The position numbers and the translations under genes were made by a program. The notes under the pieces were generated by a model that saw only the letters and a list, made by a program, of their open reading frames with translations, made no database searches and was not told the origin of the DNA. From IMG/VR virus record IMGVR_UViG_3300005096_000098, positions 1 through 37,469 of that record: a DNA stretch of 37,469 nucleotides. One strand, given 5' to 3'. Below, one piece after another: positions 1,086 through 15,791 of the stretch (position 1 is the first letter of the stretch; each line of letters begins with the position of its first letter). Source of the stretch: a virus.

Positions 1086-1448
1086 ATGGCAAAAAAGAAC
1101 ATTGTTTTGCTTGCAGAAGGCCATAGTGGCGAGACTGTGCAAATTGACACGGCGGCTAGTGAATCCGCGTTAAATGACTTGTTATGTGTTGGTGGTGAAT
1201 ATAACTTTAAAAATCAACCTGAGCGACTGAAATATATTGGTAAGCATAATGGCTGGCACCAATTTGAAAAGATAGGCGAACAGGGTGTGTGGTGCGAACT
1301 GCTTGATAGCGACCTGCATATGATTGAAGAAACCAAAGACAATAATATATTTTCAGAATGCGGATGCAGATTTGAAAACGATCACTCTAACGCTGTGGTT
1401 TTGTGTGAAGAATGTAGCAAGTTACCTTGCCACAATAGAGCCATATAA
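1086..1448 (+). CDS. Hypothetical protein with C-terminal Cys cluster
   Basis: A 120-residue protein. Residues 1-85 are a mixed alpha/beta region with no recognised domain. The last 35 residues hold CGCRF, then CEECSKLPC, five or six cysteines that could bind one or two zinc ions. TGGAGAAC precedes the ATG. The stop codon TAA lies inside ATATAAC, the outer box of the attC-like repeat that follows. Confidence 0.65.
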   Translation: MAKKNIVLLAEGHSGETVQIDTAASESALNDLLCVGGEYNFKNQPERLKYIGKHNGWHQFEKIGEQGVWCELLDSDLHMIEETKDNNIFSECGCRFENDHSNAVVLCEECSKLPCHNRAI

Positions 1449-4769: not shown

Positions 4770-4945
4770 TGCCAAACAAGATAAAACACTCGCCAGAAAC
4801 CAGATGCCTATGCGCGTATTTATACTGGTTCTGCCGCAACAAAACTGGAAAAGGTGTGCGCGGTTTCCTTTCTCTGAGCCAGATAGAGAAGATCACCGGA
4901 GTTCCAGGCAGTAGCATAAGCAAAATATCCAGAGGTGTATTCTGA
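4769..4945 (+). CDS. Small HTH-like protein
   Basis: A 58-residue basic protein in TAATG overlap with recT and ATGA-type overlap with the next gene. The last 30 residues read like a helix-turn-helix (LSLSQIEKITGVPGSSISKI), with the Gly-Val-Pro turn and Ser/Ile pattern typical of recognition helices. It is too short for a full repressor, so it may be an accessory regulator. Confidence 0.6.
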   Translation: MPNKIKHSPETRCLCAYLYWFCRNKTGKGVRGFLSLSQIEKITGVPGSSISKISRGVF

Positions 4946-5163
4946 TGAAACCACTTGAAGAGCTATCCACAGAAGAACTAAGCCGCATCAGGGTTAAACA
5001 TGCTGCTAGTACGAAGAAGGATTCCTTCTCGGTCTTTTGCATCGGCCAGAAGAAGGCTGTGACTAAGCTGAATCACGACCCCTTGAGCAAGGAAGGGCGG
5101 AGGCTGGTGAATGAGGCGAAAGACAGGCTATGTTATCCAGAAGATGAAGGTGACTTATGGTGA
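4945..5163 (+). CDS. Hypothetical protein, 72 aa
   Basis: A helical soluble protein with a basic middle and an acidic tail ending YPEDEGDLW. A very similar tail (YPDEEDLF) is encoded by the tiny frame at 5522-5566. Acidic tails with a terminal aromatic residue can act as protein-docking peptides, as in SSB, but this is inference. No domain recognised. Confidence 0.6.
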   Translation: MKPLEELSTEELSRIRVKHAASTKKDSFSVFCIGQKKAVTKLNHDPLSKEGRRLVNEAKDRLCYPEDEGDLW

Positions 5164-5525
5164 AATTCGATAATATTAAAGTTGGCGACAAAGTGATGAT
5201 TCTCTCAGAAGTACGCATTGGATGGGGCGGCGGAAAATCATTTTGGATGCCTAAAACCGTAGATAAGGTTACACCAAAGCAATTTGTTGTTGGCAGTTCT
5301 CGTTATAAAAAGGAAACAGGTTCGGCTATTGGTGATTATTACTCAAAGAGCGCAAAGCTAATTGGTGAGGTGAAAGATGAGACAAAGGAAAGAAACGTCC
5401 TAGTTAGAAAACTGAATTACGCATACGAAATAAAGAAGATAATTGGAAAGGTAAAGGTGCCTCACGACCACGAAAATTTGCAAGAAATCCTAAGCAGATT
5501 AAGAGAAGTCAGCAAGCTACTATGA
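5157..5525 (+). CDS. Hypothetical protein with SH3-like N-terminus
   Basis: A 122-residue protein. Residues 1-60 look like a small beta-barrel (VGDKVMILSEVRIGWGGG... then VVGSSRYKK), as in KOW or SH3-type folds. The remaining half is a charged helical hairpin. It overlaps the previous gene by 7 bases. It could bind nucleic acid or a host protein; no family is firmly recognised. Confidence 0.6.
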   Translation: MVKFDNIKVGDKVMILSEVRIGWGGGKSFWMPKTVDKVTPKQFVVGSSRYKKETGSAIGDYYSKSAKLIGEVKDETKERNVLVRKLNYAYEIKKIIGKVKVPHDHENLQEILSRLREVSKLL

Positions 5526-5566
5526 AGGACAAGTTGACATATCCTGATGAAGAGGATTTGTTTTGA
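5522..5566 (+). CDS. 14-codon frame ending in attC-like box
   Basis: MKDKLTYPDEEDLF only. It is of interest because its tail repeats the end of the 4945-5163 product and its stop TGA lies in TGATAAC, the outer box of the repeat at 5564. It may be the remnant of a longer gene cut by cassette exchange. The evidence for expression is slight. Confidence 0.25.
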   Translation: MKDKLTYPDEEDLF

Positions 5567-5665
5567 TAACGACCACGCTCACGGGCGAATAAACGCCCAA
5601 CTGAGCATGAATTTTACAACGAAAGCCCGGCGCGTTTATTTGTCCGGTGGAGCTAATTGTTATGC
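5564..5665 (+). other. attC-like site 1
   Basis: Outer boxes TGATAAC (5564-5570) and GTTATGC (5659-5665) face each other. The arms contain GCTC on the left and its complement GAGC on the right, then perfect 9-base arms AATAAACGC (5588-5596) and GCGTTTATT (5632-5640). The arms differ in length by two bases, leaving unpaired bases. The start codon of the following gene lies inside GTTATGC, and its ribosome site (GGTGGAG) is within the right arm. At 102 bases it fits the size range of integron attC sites. Confidence 0.5.
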
Positions 5666-5940
5666 GTATTCTGCACCTAACACTTAAAAAGAAATGGTTT
5701 GACATGATCGCCAGCGGTGAAAAACGCGAAGAATACCGCGAAATGAAACCGTACTGGCATAAGCGACTTAACAACAAAGAATATGACGCTATACATTTCA
5801 GAAACGGGTACTCGAAAGATGCGCCAAACATGCTTGTAGAGCTGAAAGAAATTTGTTCTTCACTTGGCATTATTGAATGGGGCGCTCCTGAAAAAGAGTC
5901 TGTTTATATATTGCGATTAGGTAAGATTTTAGACGCATAA
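5662..5940 (+). CDS. ASCH-superfamily protein (DUF3850-like)
   Basis: A 92-residue protein resembling DUF3850 of the ASCH fold: LTLKKKWFDMIASGEKREEYR at the N-terminus, YWHKRL, IHFRNGY near the middle, and a closing VYILRLGKIL strand. ASCH proteins relate to PUA folds and are thought to bind RNA. The frame opens at a GTG (5647), but the ATG at 5662 matches the family start. The gene begins within one attC-like site and stops within the next (GCATAAC), exactly the arrangement of an integron gene cassette. Confidence 0.75.
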   Translation: MRILHLTLKKKWFDMIASGEKREEYREMKPYWHKRLNNKEYDAIHFRNGYSKDAPNMLVELKEICSSLGIIEWGAPEKESVYILRLGKILDA

Positions 5941-6022
5941 CGATAAAGATAAGTTGGCGCACAACCAAGCAAATCAGAAAACCAGCGGCGTATAACCGCT
6001 CAACTTAATTGCCTTGTTATGT
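5935..6022 (+). other. attC-like site 2 (best example)
   Basis: Outer boxes GCATAAC (5935-5941) and GTTATGT (6016-6022). Each is separated by exactly 8 unpaired bases from inner arms TAAGTTG-GCG (5950-5959) and CGC-T-CAACTTA (5997-6007). The right arm carries one extra base (T6000). Symmetric spacers plus one extrahelical base are the structural hallmark of attC sites. The stop TAA of the preceding gene lies in the left box. In classic cassettes the extra base is in the left arm, so orientation relative to the genes may be reversed. Confidence 0.55.
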
Positions 6023-6041
6023 GCAGGGCTGGAGTAAAAAA

Positions 6042-6230
6042 ATGAATTGGTTAATAACTTATACGCAAGACACTGGCGGACAGATTAAATATGCAAATGA
6101 GATTACACCTATGAGACCAGGTTACTGGTTATCTGATATGCTCAATACCTATCAAGATGCTGAAACAATTTTACATAGTGCGATTGAGATTACAGACGAA
6201 GAGTACGACTCTTTAATTAATATTATTTAG
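6042..6230 (+). CDS. Hypothetical protein, 62 aa, cassette-like
   Basis: The ATG at 6042 follows GGAG and is preferred to the ATG at 6009, which lies in the attC-like arm. The product is a small acidic soluble protein (YTQDTGGQIKYANEI... ending EEYDSLINII), with no family recognised. Its stop TAG is two bases before GCCTAAC, a perfect integron-type RYYYAAC box. It is thus the second gene flanked by such repeats. Confidence 0.6.
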   Translation: MNWLITYTQDTGGQIKYANEITPMRPGYWLSDMLNTYQDAETILHSAIEITDEEYDSLINII

Positions 6231-6231
6231 C

Positions 6232-6304
6232 GCCTAACAGTGTAATAGGCCGACGTCCGTAATATTGGAATATGCAGAACCGATGAAATCAAAGACGCTT
6301 AGGC
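6232..6304 (+). other. attC-like site 3, decayed
   Basis: GCCTAAC (6232-6238) is a textbook left box. The only opposing box is CTTAGGC (6298-6304), with one mismatch to GTTAGGC. No convincing inner arms are present, and the next gene begins at 6283, inside it. It may mark the broken end of a small cassette array. Confidence 0.25.
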
Positions 6305-6426
6305 TAACAAAACGTGAATCATGGGATTCAATGGACGAGAAAACACAATCCTTTGTTAGAGCAATGGCAAAGGAAGGGCTGACTGTTCGGGCAATTAAAA
6401 CAAAGAGTGGGATTTGGAGAAAATGA
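6283..6426 (+). CDS. 47-aa basic HTH-like protein
   Basis: ATG at 6283 and TGA at 6424-6426, overlapping the next start. Strongly basic. The second half (FVRAMAKEGLTVRAIKTKSG) looks like a short helix-turn-helix. No ribosome site stands out, and the first codons lie in the decayed repeat. Moderate evidence only. Confidence 0.45.
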   Translation: MKSKTLRLTKRESWDSMDEKTQSFVRAMAKEGLTVRAIKTKSGIWRK

Positions 6427-11300: not shown

Positions 11301-11678
11301 CTATGAATCCTCCAACCACGTACCCGCCGCTGGTGGCTTTACCCGTTTAACTGTATGCACCTTCTCGGCTGAGTATTTTGATTCTCTTGAATCAGTATCG
11401 ACAACCGTAAATACATAAAAATAATCACCATCAGCCAAAGCCGTATTATCAATAACTTTCTGACATACGTTGTTGGGCTGCATCGGTAACGTATAACTGC
11501 CTGTTGCAGTACCAGAATAGAACCGAACCTCTGCTATTTCATCCAATGCCAAAGCCGTACCGTCTTCACGTTCGATAGGCATGGCACAGTTGATAGTGGT
11601 GACGGGGGTTATGTCAGGATCAACCGCATAAGCACTGGTTGAGATTAGGAGAAGCAATGTTAAGAGTAGTTTTTTCAT
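11301..11678 (-). CDS. Secreted fibronectin-like domain protein
   Basis: A 125-residue protein with a clear signal peptide (MKKLLLTLLLLISTSAYA, cut after about residue 18) and a single beta-sandwich resembling a fibronectin type III domain (EIAEVRFYSG..., DGDYFYVFTVVDTD). Two cysteines could form a disulfide. It overlaps the phosphoesterase gene by four bases. Export of a lone such domain by a phage is unusual; it may decorate the virion after lysis or act in the periplasm. Confidence 0.65.
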   Translation of the reverse strand: MKKLLLTLLLLISTSAYAVDPDITPVTTINCAMPIEREDGTALALDEIAEVRFYSGTATGSYTLPMQPNNVCQKVIDNTALADGDYFYVFTVVDTDSRESKYSAEKVHTVKRVKPPAAGTWLEDS

Positions 11679-13204
11679 TCATCTGCACCATCTATGGTTA
11701 TTCCAACATCAGGAGAATAATCTGTTCTTAAAACGTTACTGCCGGGGTAAATTCTGCCATGCCAATGCGTTCTACCACCGTCAGCAATCATGCGCAATTC
11801 GATGTATTCTTTGCCTACGACATGCCCCTCAACGAGATAATGCCACTTACCATCATCATCAAAAAAGCGCATTACAGACATTTTATTTATAGCTGTATTT
11901 ATATTATTACCCGATGGAGACGCTCTCATTTGTAGATGCTCATTGGTTTCATCATATAAAACAGCCCCTCTGTGAGCATCACCCGATATAGTTGCGCATC
12001 CACCTTTAACAGCCCATCCTGCTGAGTTAGCGTTGCCGCCATCTTTCAGATAAGCCAACAACCTAGCTTGATCTGTGTCATACATCTGCCAAGCATCTTG
12101 TGTGCCGATAGTCTCTTTCGACACCAAGTATATTTTAAAGGTCGATGTACTATTTTTGATAACACTCTCTAGCCATGTGAACTGTGTGTCACCTAATATA
12201 CGTTTAGTAGCATCGCTATCTAATTTCCCATCTCGATCAGTTGTATATGGGTCAACAAGATTCTGTGTCGGAGTATCTCTAAAGGCGCAATTCTCCAGAA
12301 CAATGAAATGGACATCTGCAATAACAAAGTCATAGTATAACCGCTCTGCTTTAGTCAACGGATAAGCTAATTGTGTCCTGCTATTTACATCAGGGCTTTC
12401 AGGATTACCCTTAGCATAGGCACGATATGTATCAATGCCAAACTGCCACTGCTTGTCAACGTCTGCCTGATTTGCACAAAATACACCGGCAGCATTTGTC
12501 CCGCCTGTTGGGATATGCCCCCGTGAGTAATTTAATCCGCCATACACTTGTCCAGATTCATACTGCCTGCCTGCATTTCTTCCAGGGTCATTACCCGGCC
12601 ATGTATGGTCGTCGGTTGACTGTATATAAGGCGTATTCTGTATAGATGTTTCGAAGCCTTTTGTTTTCCAGTACATGCGGTATTTTGAATAGTATGACTC
12701 TTTCCATTCTGTATCTGTAATAGCTGAAAAAGACTTTCCGAGCGCCTTATCTAACCAACTTATTGAGCGGACAGTTTCACCATTCCATGTATCCACGCCT
12801 GGGTCTGATGTATTGATACCACCAGACGGCTGGTCACAATATATCTGGTCGCCGATAATAGATAAAAAGGCGGGGTCTGTATCCTTAATATACTGCTCAA
12901 ACTGAAATGGGAGTTTATACCCCAAACAACTACCAACAACGAAGCTCCACGTATCGCCTGATACCGGTGCTGTTTTTGCTATCCCGCTGACCGTATTAGT
13001 TTGTGTTAATGAGAAAGGGTATTTACTGTTAGCACTTAGCCCCGTTACATCAAAAACGATATTGCCATCATCTACAGCCGTATCAGGCGTTATTGCCTCA
13101 CCAGTTAATGACAGGGTAACAACATCATTAGAATCACACCTAGCGCAAATACGCACGGCTGACGATGAATCTTCATGTAATCCTAACCACCAGTGCGTTA
13201 TCAT
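11675..13204 (-). CDS. PhoD-type metallophosphoesterase, probable tail-associated enzyme
   Basis: A 509-residue protein. Residues 1-85 form a beta-sandwich like the PhoD N-terminal domain. The catalytic part has the family metal motifs in order: GSC at 91, GDQIY at 118-122, DDH at 198-200, LGDTQFTWL at 337-345 and SGDAHRG at 407-413. PhoD enzymes hydrolyse phosphate mono- or diesters, including teichoic acids. No signal peptide is present. It overlaps the lectin-like gene upstream, so it is probably assembled on the tail and may cut phosphodiester-linked surface polysaccharide. Substrate is inference. Confidence 0.82.
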   Translation of the reverse strand: MITHWWLGLHEDSSSAVRICARCDSNDVVTLSLTGEAITPDTAVDDGNIVFDVTGLSANSKYPFSLTQTNTVSGIAKTAPVSGDTWSFVVGSCLGYKLPFQFEQYIKDTDPAFLSIIGDQIYCDQPSGGINTSDPGVDTWNGETVRSISWLDKALGKSFSAITDTEWKESYYSKYRMYWKTKGFETSIQNTPYIQSTDDHTWPGNDPGRNAGRQYESGQVYGGLNYSRGHIPTGGTNAAGVFCANQADVDKQWQFGIDTYRAYAKGNPESPDVNSRTQLAYPLTKAERLYYDFVIADVHFIVLENCAFRDTPTQNLVDPYTTDRDGKLDSDATKRILGDTQFTWLESVIKNSTSTFKIYLVSKETIGTQDAWQMYDTDQARLLAYLKDGGNANSAGWAVKGGCATISGDAHRGAVLYDETNEHLQMRASPSGNNINTAINKMSVMRFFDDDGKWHYLVEGHVVGKEYIELRMIADGGRTHWHGRIYPGSNVLRTDYSPDVGITIDGADE

Positions 13205-14013
13205 CCTTCAAGACTCTCCACCAACATACCGCCTTGAGCGCGATATAAATCAACAGCAACTGTTGCAGCATCTACGCTTGCGGGAGGTCGACCAATGAAA
13301 TAAGAGTGTGTTTTGCAACCAGACGGTGTTGTTGGCGCACTGTTCATCCATGTTTGTAAAGTTAATGATCCCGTAAGACCAGCACCAATTGCTAGTTTTA
13401 ATCCAGCAGGAAAGCCATCTGCTTTATCGGTAGTGTCAAACTCATTAACACTAAAATTAAGCGCACCATCAATATAAATATCACCTCCAACTGTCGCGCC
13501 TAAGTCAATATCGAATAATACATGATGCTGAACACCGTATGATGGCGCTGATGTAGGCTGTAACGATACATCAGCGCCAGCACCAGAGGCATCAGCAACC
13601 TTCCAGCGCCATATAAATACTGGCCGGCCATTCGTGCCTAACCTCGCACCAAAGCCACCATCAGCGTTATTCGCAGCATTAGATGCGCCGCAATCAAGCA
13701 TCCACTCACTACCACCGACAGGTGCATTAACCGCTTCATACCAAAGACTAATTAATAAACGAGTATTGCCAGTACTTGTATCCATGATACTGAGCATTGC
13801 TGCATCAGTAGATGTTATGTCATTATCACCCGCCCACTGAAAACCTTTAGCTAGTACATCAAAAACATTAGTCATAGTGCCTGTTGCAGTTATATCAGCA
13901 ATGGTGCCTGTTCTATCTTTCACTGTAGCGTTGCCATCCAGCAGTGGAATAAACACAGCAGGATAAGTTATTTGTGGCAGGATTAACGCAGGGTCTTTAA
14001 TTCCGAGTTTCAT
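13201..14013 (-). CDS. Lectin-like (LamG/concanavalin-fold) tail protein
   Basis: A 270-residue protein. Residues 20-250 look like one jelly-roll sandwich, with repeated beta segments (FQWAGDND, LLISLWYEAV, HHVLFDIDLGA, GDIYIDGALNFSVNEF, GLKLAIGAG) typical of LamG-like carbohydrate-binding domains. It is coupled by overlaps to the genes on both sides, so it is probably part of the receptor-binding apparatus together with the PhoD-type enzyme. Confidence 0.65.
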   Translation of the reverse strand: MKLGIKDPALILPQITYPAVFIPLLDGNATVKDRTGTIADITATGTMTNVFDVLAKGFQWAGDNDITSTDAAMLSIMDTSTGNTRLLISLWYEAVNAPVGGSEWMLDCGASNAANNADGGFGARLGTNGRPVFIWRWKVADASGAGADVSLQPTSAPSYGVQHHVLFDIDLGATVGGDIYIDGALNFSVNEFDTTDKADGFPAGLKLAIGAGLTGSLTLQTWMNSAPTTPSGCKTHSYFIGRPPASVDAATVAVDLYRAQGGMLVESLEG

Positions 14014-14555
14014 TATTGCACCTCGATTGTGATCGTTACAGGGTTAACGGCTGTGCCTGTTGGAGCTAAAGCACCAAGATGAATCGTATCAATCGTTGCA
14101 TCAGTGCCAAAGGTTGACAGCTCAAGCACCGCTTTCTGCGCTGATACAGCAGGCTGCCCTTGATTTGTAGTGCTAGTACCACCGGCTGCAATATCGGTAA
14201 CGGTAAATCGCTGTATTGCTGTTCCAATGTCAGAAGCATTAAGCGATACCATCACCATAGGGGTGTAAGGAATACCACCTTCCTGATAATTAAAAGTGAT
14301 CGTGGCAAACTTAGCGCCAGTCTTAAAATTATTAATGATGAATATCTCAGCCTCTAATGGCGCTGTAATATCAGTGATAACCTTTGCAGCACTATCTATC
14401 GTGATTATGCGAGGGTCTGTTGATAGTGCTGGTTTATAATTCTCAGCAATCATCAACCCCGCATTTTTGTTGTCGCTTGTTGTTGAGCCGCCAGGCTTTG
14501 TCATGAAATAACGCTGACCGTCGACAATGGTATATTCTGATTTAATTGCTGTCAT
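14013..14555 (-). CDS. Tail fibre-like structural protein, 180 aa
   Basis: A 180-residue, Thr/Ala/Ile-rich all-beta protein. Its start (TIVDGQRYFMTKPGG) and its closing strand (PVTITIEVQ) look like small virion or fibre domains. Its beginning recalls the 258-residue protein at 25410. It is the first gene after the terminator at 14583, so expression probably needs antitermination. Exact role unknown. Confidence 0.55.
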   Translation of the reverse strand: MTAIKSEYTIVDGQRYFMTKPGGSTTSDNKNAGLMIAENYKPALSTDPRIITIDSAAKVITDITAPLEAEIFIINNFKTGAKFATITFNYQEGGIPYTPMVMVSLNASDIGTAIQRFTVTDIAAGGTSTTNQGQPAVSAQKAVLELSTFGTDATIDTIHLGALAPTGTAVNPVTITIEVQ

Positions 14556-14582
14556 GCTTTTCTCCGCCTTCTCTCAGGCATT

Positions 14583-14605
14583 AAAAAACCCCAGTTAAGG
14601 GGCTT
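14583..14605 (-). terminator. Intrinsic terminator, leftward
   Basis: Read leftward: AAGCCCC, loop TTAACT, GGGGTTT, then more T. The 7-base stem with six T in a row is a classical rho-independent signal. It lies after the membrane gene at 14632 and before the fibre-like gene. Confidence 0.75.
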
Positions 14606-14631
14606 GTTTATGTTGTTTTAATATTAATTAT

Positions 14632-15012
14632 TTAATTAACTGTTATATATATCGTATAAATAAAAATAGCGAAAAACTGCAACCCGAAAAATAACATCGG
14701 CGGTATAAATTTAACGCCAAACTCTCTACGCCAGATTATCCACGGCATTGTAAAAGTAAACACAACTGTTCCCCAAAGCCAATAGACAGGATTCATGTTC
14801 AAAAGATGCGCTGCTAAACTATAAAACTGATTTACTAATCCTGGCCTAATTCCGTTTATCTTTCCAAGATTCCCGTAATCATGTGCAGCACAAAGTAATC
14901 TCGCTCTATCAAGCAACTTGTGCATAAATTGAGATAATGAGCATCCGTCAGTATATTCGCCGTTGTCCATTAACGCCTGCGCCTGCTCAAGATAGTTTCT
15001 TACTGAAATCAT
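14632..15012 (-). CDS. Membrane protein with DGCS...HD motif
   Basis: A 126-residue protein if started at the ATG at 15012, which has GGA upstream; the frame opens at 15045. The soluble N-terminal half has DGCS, then LLCAAHDYG about 25 residues on, an arrangement recalling phospholipase A2-like proteins (Cys with His-Asp). Two transmembrane helices follow (about residues 76-96 and 103-125). It lies between the tailspike-type gene and a terminator, where phages often carry exclusion or accessory genes. Catalysis is not proven. Confidence 0.55.
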   Translation of the reverse strand: MISVRNYLEQAQALMDNGEYTDGCSLSQFMHKLLDRARLLCAAHDYGNLGKINGIRPGLVNQFYSLAAHLLNMNPVYWLWGTVVFTFTMPWIIWRREFGVKFIPPMLFFGLQFFAIFIYTIYITVN

Positions 15013-15017
15013 AATAA

Positions 15018-15791
15018 TTAATCCGTATATTGTATGGTTATCCAACCACGATTTATTGATGTATCATCAAATAGGTTTATATCAAACTTCCCACCTGTTA
15101 ATCTATTTAATACTATGTTAGTAGAGTCAGCTGAGTAACCTTTCGAACCTGTGGCTGCATCTTCTTTTGATTCGGCACTAGCCATGTCATATGTAGTGGC
15201 AAGACCATCTTCTTGGATAATTACGTTTATTGTTCTTATTTTTGACAGCGTGACTCCATGAGCAACGCTTACAGATGCAGTTGCATCCATATCCCATGTA
15301 CCAATATTTAATATCTTTGTATTAAGACTGGCTATTTTACCTTCTGTAACAAAAGTCGCATCACCCCATTGTGTAGGGCTTGATATAGGATCGTTCCCCT
15401 GATTCGTCTCTGTACCTGCAACTAATGATTTATAGTGAGCTAAATCAGAACCTTTTACAATGTCATTAAAGCTATATGACTTATCATTAATCCACGGATC
15501 AAACTGACCTGCGTCAACCTCGCCGATAGGGTCGCGGCTCCATATAGTCACATCGTTTTCGTCTTTTTGAACCGCCTTATACACGCCGTCTAGGAATACA
15601 TCAGGGATATATCCACCGGAAAGCGATAAAACAGGATTAGCTATTGCTGTGGAAAAGTCTGAGTCTGAATAAACCGTTTTAAGTGTGGTCGTGCCAGGTT
15701 CAAAAAAATAGGTCTTAGCGCCCACTACAGGATTTCCATTTGAATCAAGAATCTGTGGGGTTGGGTTTGAATAACGTGCCAAAATAATCAC
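15018..15791 (-). CDS. Tailspike head-binding protein with CBM-like module
   Basis: A 257-residue protein. Residues 5-95 match the P22 tailspike head-binding domain (ARYSNPTPQILDSNGNPV, FFEPGTT, SLSGGYIPDVFLDG, YKAV, DPIGEV). Residues 96-145 resemble a small carbohydrate-binding module (SYSFNDIVKGSD, HYKSL, GNDPISSPTQW). No beta-helix follows, so it is far shorter than P22 gp9 (about 667). It probably acts as an adaptor joining the separate lectin, fibre and PhoD proteins to the virion. Confidence 0.78.
   Translation of the reverse strand: MIILARYSNPTPQILDSNGNPVVGAKTYFFEPGTTTLKTVYSDSDFSTAIANPVLSLSGGYIPDVFLDGVYKAVQKDENDVTIWSRDPIGEVDAGQFDPWINDKSYSFNDIVKGSDLAHYKSLVAGTETNQGNDPISSPTQWGDATFVTEGKIASLNTKILNIGTWDMDATASVSVAHGVTLSKIRTINVIIQEDGLATTYDMASAESKEDAATGSKGYSADSTNIVLNRLTGGKFDINLFDDTSINRGWITIQYTD

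Follow-up and report, generated by a model that had tools for sequence, protein, structure and literature searches.

A probable integrase-less array of integron-like gene cassettes, apparently of inverted polarity, in the recombination/early operon of a phage genome

Integrons are a bacterial gene-capture device whose cassettes are swappable units, resistance genes among them, and the attC arrays found in phage genomes have so far been interpreted as host-derived fragments. The closest described systems are the CALINs (at least two close attC sites, no intI) of Tetrasphaera phage TJE1, Polaribacter phage P12002L and Pseudoalteromonas phage H101/PH101 (Qi 2023, PMC9892861); five of the six phage attC sites tested in that work recombined with attI1 by IntI1 (PMC9892861), so the kind of locus that we describe here is already known. 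Our locus resembles those CALINs in having attC sites without intI in a phage genome, together with small or accessory genes (PMC9892861). It differs from them in that its cassette genes are phage genes common to otherwise unrelated phages, in that its polarity is inverted (by our covariance model, TJE1 is canonical, while the one site found in P12002L is sense) and in that its attI-like array end is common to another phage. Sedentary chromosomal integrons and the complete integrons of Vibrio phage Va_90-11-286_p16 and Shewanella phage M16-3 share with it the attC boxes, arms, extrahelical base and GTTRRRY core, but they have intI and their genes lie antisense to the recombining strand, neither of which holds here. 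In the open-licence literature, we found no description of reversed-polarity cassettes shared by unrelated phages or of a shared phage attI-like end.

The window analysed is the whole of IMG/VR virus record IMGVR_UViG_3300005096_000098 (37,469 bp). Its portal protein is ~31% identical to the portals of Vibrio and enterobacterial phages, which makes it a distant relative; searches of its RecT, ProQ-like and NinB genes against viral contigs yielded no useful close relatives, a nucleotide search against phages yielded none, and these searches together turned up no relative with an empty or swapped cassette site. An ASCH-like gene and a 62-aa ORF lie between a ProQ-C-like gene (5157-5525), which is left of site 1, and the genes that lead, from 7088 onwards to the right of the array, towards NinB and NinG. 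We read this stretch, with a probability of about 0.74, as an integrase-less cassette array of the CALIN type within the phage recombination/early operon, made up of two attC sites, two genes and an attI-like right end, on which an integron integrase would act in trans. The initial annotation had held that the genome lacks an integrase, and a PF00589 profile search of the entire record for tyrosine recombinases indeed returned no match; the locus is not a complete integron (intI plus attI), as the record is without intI and its attI-like element is putative.

Candidate sites were scored with a covariance model of our own, R1, and not with that of IntegronFinder; the tool itself describes the E-values as rough. 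Starting from TIGR02249 integron integrase genes in bacterial genomes, we collected 21 attC sites from the adjoining arrays, chose them by box and arm geometry and then aligned them, so that the model holds both the R and the L helices. Training used only attC sites beside bacterial intI and zero phage sites; the set is limited and consists mainly of GC-rich proteobacterial sites, and the polarity reading given below depends on it. The window was scanned with filters off, and each site was also compared with 3000 dinucleotide shuffles. As controls, R1 detected sites beside intI genes outside the training set (up to 49 bits), one site in Tetrasphaera phage TJE1 (18.7 bits) and one in Polaribacter phage P12002L (13.6 bits). 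Across 92 ASCH and RecT loci (915 kb), it gave ten matches at E<=5, all confined to the loci L007, L013, L025 and L098, each of which carries an ASCH gene at attC-type boxes, and this restriction argues that the model is specific.

Site 2 (5935-6022, + strand) is the clearest attC site of the genome. Its core boxes, GCATAAC (5935-5941) and GTTATGT (6016-6022), are inverse complementary (RYYYAAC-like and GTTRRRY-like) and pair at six of seven positions by Watson-Crick pairs and at the remaining one by G-T, and its L arms (AAGTT+GGC and GCT+(C)+AACTT) leave a single extrahelical base. R1 matches it at 5933-6024 with 30.0 bits (E=1.8e-5 over the whole window), the top score in the genome, and none of the 3000 shuffles does as well. 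In the fold of the coding strand both boxes and both arms are paired. The arms (one of five pairs, the other of three), the single extrahelical base and the two spacers occupy the same alignment columns as in the bacterial sites, so the opposing boxes, inner arms, symmetric spacers and extra base that had been described for this site stand in the register of a bacterial attC.

Site 1 (5564-5665, + strand) has the boxes TGATAAC (5564-5570) and GTTATGC (5659-5665), a long imperfect inner stem and a 15-nt inverted repeat. It comes second in the R1 scan, with a match at 5563-5667 of 13.4 bits (E=0.19 over the whole window; E=0.00078 when the search is restricted to 155 bp around it), and 55 of 3000 shuffles are equally good. 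By itself, this site is weak, given that a match of 13.3 bits, which we take to be chance, occurs elsewhere in the genome at 12919-13007, on the - strand of the structural-gene region. Sites 1 and 2 are ~270 bp apart in a record without a PF00589 match, which would make the locus a CALIN if site 1, weak at the scale of the genome, is a true attC; were site 2 the lone attC, the locus would be a single, SALIN-like attC.

The third site is of another nature. The initial annotation had placed the boxes and inverted repeats of sites 1 and 2 correctly, and had extended the attC architecture to a decayed site at 6232-6304; the R1 search bears the architecture out for site 2 and, less strongly, for site 1, and does not for the third, where the scan of the window gave no match on that strand. 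Within 6232-6304 the sole convincing part is the first box, GCCTAAC (6232-6238; reverse complement GTTAGGC); the partner box reads CTTAGGC, there are no L arms, and 670 of 3000 shuffles do equally well. We therefore rejected a full attC at this position, also when a longer partner box, near 6355, was considered. The bare core box instead overlaps an element, TAACAGTGT, 11 variable bases and GTCCGTAATATTGGAATATG, that together with the box spans 6232-6274 (+ strand) and that recurs at the array end of the L007 phage (at 6343) over 40 bp, with 29 of 29 defined positions and identical spacing. Because the element shared with L007 overlaps a perfect core box, we interpret the former third site as a core box that stands alone, flanked by an attI-like element. 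The similarity to the L007 phage is also seen by blastn (window positions 6235-6287, 79% over 53 bp, E=7e-5); the best unrelated match to the element reaches 20 of 29 positions in 2.1 Mb, only coincidental matches appear in 388 genomes with two mismatches allowed, and a search of IMG/VR with an exact 17-mer recovers the full element in the contig of L007 only. We take the element for a putative attI-like platform that closes the array, a role based on two phages.

The ASCH-like gene (5662-5940, + strand; 92 aa) is joined to both sites in the way that had been noticed at the outset: translation starts at an ATG (5662-5664) inside the 3' box of site 1 and ends at a TAA (5938-5940) inside the 5' box of site 2. 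A Shine-Dalgarno-like GGTGGAG lies in the arm of site 1 that adjoins the start. Its product matches PHROG family phrog_625 strongly (E=1.1e-26), while the match to the ASCH Pfam domain PF04266 (E=0.009, 17.1 bits) falls below the gathering cut-off of 21.2 bits, and a comparison with solved structures gave no match. The second gene, the 62-aa ORF (6042-6230, + strand), has an SD-like GGAG ahead of its ATG; its protein has nothing real among viral contigs beyond a single 10-residue match, and no relative on plasmids.

Polarity sets this array apart. R1 is strongly strand-specific. Every site used to train it is on the same strand as intI; in canonical cassettes this is the bottom strand, the one that recombines, and the genes are encoded on the opposite strand. 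Accordingly scored, the matches in L104, L105 and TJE1 (from annotated genes) and in L208 (an intI contig, from ORF length) are antisense to the genes; those in the window, L007, L013, L025, L098 and L199 are sense, as is the single R1 site found in P12002L. The attC sites thus appear, under this model, to be inverted relative to the genes, with the coding strand as the recombining strand and with attC plus the following ORF as the unit. In that arrangement the crossover would fall at AA^C (TAA^C) at the stop codons of the ORFs, at A5569^C5570 in site 1. Mobile unit A would comprise the rest of site 1 and the ASCH gene (5570-5940, 371 bp, + strand), with its ends at two AA^C crossover points, and mobile unit B, delimited by the polarity and the core box at 6232-6238, would comprise the rest of site 2 and the 62-aa ORF (5941-6237, 297 bp, + strand). 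A unit of attC plus ORF would account for the position of the ASCH start and its SD-like GGTGGAG inside site 1, and for a right end of the array at which a bare core is enough. It would likewise explain the ORFs of L013, L025 and L098 that begin in the attC loop or hairpin and cross the 3' box in frame.

The same gene recurs as a cassette in other phages. We found 104 relatives of the phrog_625 ASCH gene in viral contigs, as against 18 loci in ~85,000 bacterial genomes (2 of 384 genomes in one sampled class); the gene belongs to phages and is rare in bacteria, and we rejected bacterial integrons as the source of the cassette, since relatives occur in just those 2 of 384 genomes. ASCH genes with attC-type boxes at start and/or stop are present in L007, L013, L025, L028/L029, L199 and L098, the last a MAG contig; L007 and L025 each have rows of at least four consecutive sites, and terminase, portal or capsid-maturation genes are present in L007, L013, L025 and L199. 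The majority of the other relatives have an ordinary start and no attC, so that phage genes of this same protein family are mostly plain genes. Compared with six other ASCH-bearing phage contigs, the window is similar to them in the ASCH gene alone, with two exceptions (the L007 element and the gene at 1086-1448, discussed below). The proposal of a cassette-like ASCH gene is thus upheld by the same end boxes in phage contigs that are otherwise almost dissimilar, and recurrence in unrelated phages, together with the inverted polarity, suggests that phages trade genes by integron recombination. In a weakly resolved ASCH protein tree, the cassette state switches at least three times at supported branches (six times by parsimony), and a single clade of cassette-form ASCH genes was not supported. 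In the Acidobacteria MAG contig L098 (7280-8010), a pair of attC-like sites, of 19.9 and 11.4 bits, is accompanied by ORFs that start inside the hairpin; the second ORF is continuous, in the same frame, with a truncated ASCH gene.

These observations bear on several other ways of explaining the locus. A piece of a host array could have been captured by phage mosaicism, whether by illegitimate or by homologous recombination of the RecT annealing type, to leave attC sites that are real and never used in the phage. Qi et al. 2023 proposed as much for other phage CALINs (PMC9892861), the genome is without intI, and decay would fit the bare box at 6232 as well as a lost 3' box at 1443-1500; against this passive carriage, the same cassette genes with boxed ends recur in otherwise unrelated phages, the attI-like array-end element is common to the window and L007, and a gene present in 2 of 384 bacterial genomes is unlikely to have come from a bacterial array. 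We therefore regard it as unlikely, and it is still the strongest of the competitors. Alternatively, the hairpins could be RNA elements, with a role in termination, in the regulation of translation or in processing, that have come to resemble attC by convergence; they lie between co-directional genes, contain stop codons as well as SD/start signals, and form stable DNA hairpins. Yet the ATAAC/GTTAT boxes, the spacer lengths and the extrahelical base agree with attC sites beside intI, Rfam has no matching family in the window, and L199 shows the same arrangement adjoining an intI gene, all of which leaves this explanation very improbable.

The array might also be read in the usual direction, with each ORF followed by its own attC and three attC sites in all, the third decayed. 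The stop codon within the first box of the next site and the good first box at the third site would both suit such canonical cassettes, in which the ORF is antisense to the bottom strand and attC stands at the ORF's 3' end. The strand-specific R1 matches are sense here and antisense in canonical arrays, L013, L025 and L098 have ORFs that begin within the hairpin and extend through the 3' box, and the third site is without arms; this direction is accordingly improbable, and the division into an ORF plus its own attC made initially gives way to attC+ORF units at 5570-5940 and 5941-6237.

Returning to an integrase-less array of attC+ORF units, we expect that an integron integrase would be supplied in trans, either by the host or by a co-infecting or prophage element with intI; that this phage makes use of a host IntI is what we infer. 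The integrase would bind the folded coding strand and recombine each site at the AA^C of its first box. Phages could then acquire, drop or exchange units, either at the attI-like end or at any of the attC sites. If the recombinogenic strand is the coding strand, each unit would bring its own translation start, in or near the attC hairpin, and would stop at the crossover, and an inserted unit could be read by phage transcription directly, with no need for an integron or cassette promoter. In several unrelated phages, then, it is phage genes themselves that appear as the cassettes; their polarity is favourable to phage transcription, and an array end is shared. Such exchange would give phage mosaicism a precise, site-specific path and, by the reverse path, phage genes could pass into bacterial integrons.

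At least one phage with the ASCH cassette has an intI of its own. The L199 contig carries, in one direction, primase, HNH nuclease, attC, ASCH, a second ORF, a bare core GCATAAC, intI and terminase, and its intI scores 435 bits against TIGR02249 (cut-off 265), so phages are able to have their own enzyme. A broader proposal, less likely than not, is that phages maintain an integron economy of their own, in which reversed-polarity cassettes are swapped among unrelated phages at an attI-like site, with intI in trans or phage-borne. The integron-like module of L199 (also L203) lies at 11620-15300 of the phage contig IMGVR_UViG_3300031697_000459. In the viral contigs L207, L209, L213, L214 and L215, intI is followed by a co-directional phage-type tyrosine integrase with zero to two small ORFs between them, and several of these contigs have upstream attC arrays. 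In L207, GC by codon position points to cassette ORFs that are co-directional with intI, unlike those of canonical arrays.

A second cassette-derived gene may lie at 1086-1448 (+ strand; 120 aa), the core of which is homologous to a cassette gene in the phage array of L013, where the homologue and ASCH are cassettes of one array (L190 13371-13557; blastn 77% over 190 bp, tblastn 72% over 65 aa). Its codons 25-36 (SESALNDLLCVG) overlie an attC-like 3' arm and the box GTTATGT (1181-1187), and the alignment with a plain homologue in Shewanella phage 1/41 begins at residue 33; judging from the sequence, this region may be an attC fossil that has become coding. The stop codon TAA of the gene sits inside ATATAAC (1443-1449), the first box of a degenerate attC-like site (1443-1500, + strand) with the arms GAGCCG (1459-1464) and CGGCTC (1480-1485), identified by direct reading; its 3' box has decayed (CTTAG), and it reaches just 6.8 bits with R1 (E=0.098 in 481 bp). 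In L013, in L025 and in this gene of the window, the attC 3' arm encodes the N-termini of the proteins, with a recurrent SESxLxxLL motif that amounts to a translated recombination site.

Directly before site 1, a 14-codon ORF (MKDKLTYPDEEDLF and stop, 5522-5566) repeats the acidic C-terminal tail of the gene at 4945-5163 (AKDRLCYPEDEGDLW and stop, 5115-5163). With a copy of the tail on either side, the ProQ-C-like gene (5157-5525) may itself be an inserted gene.
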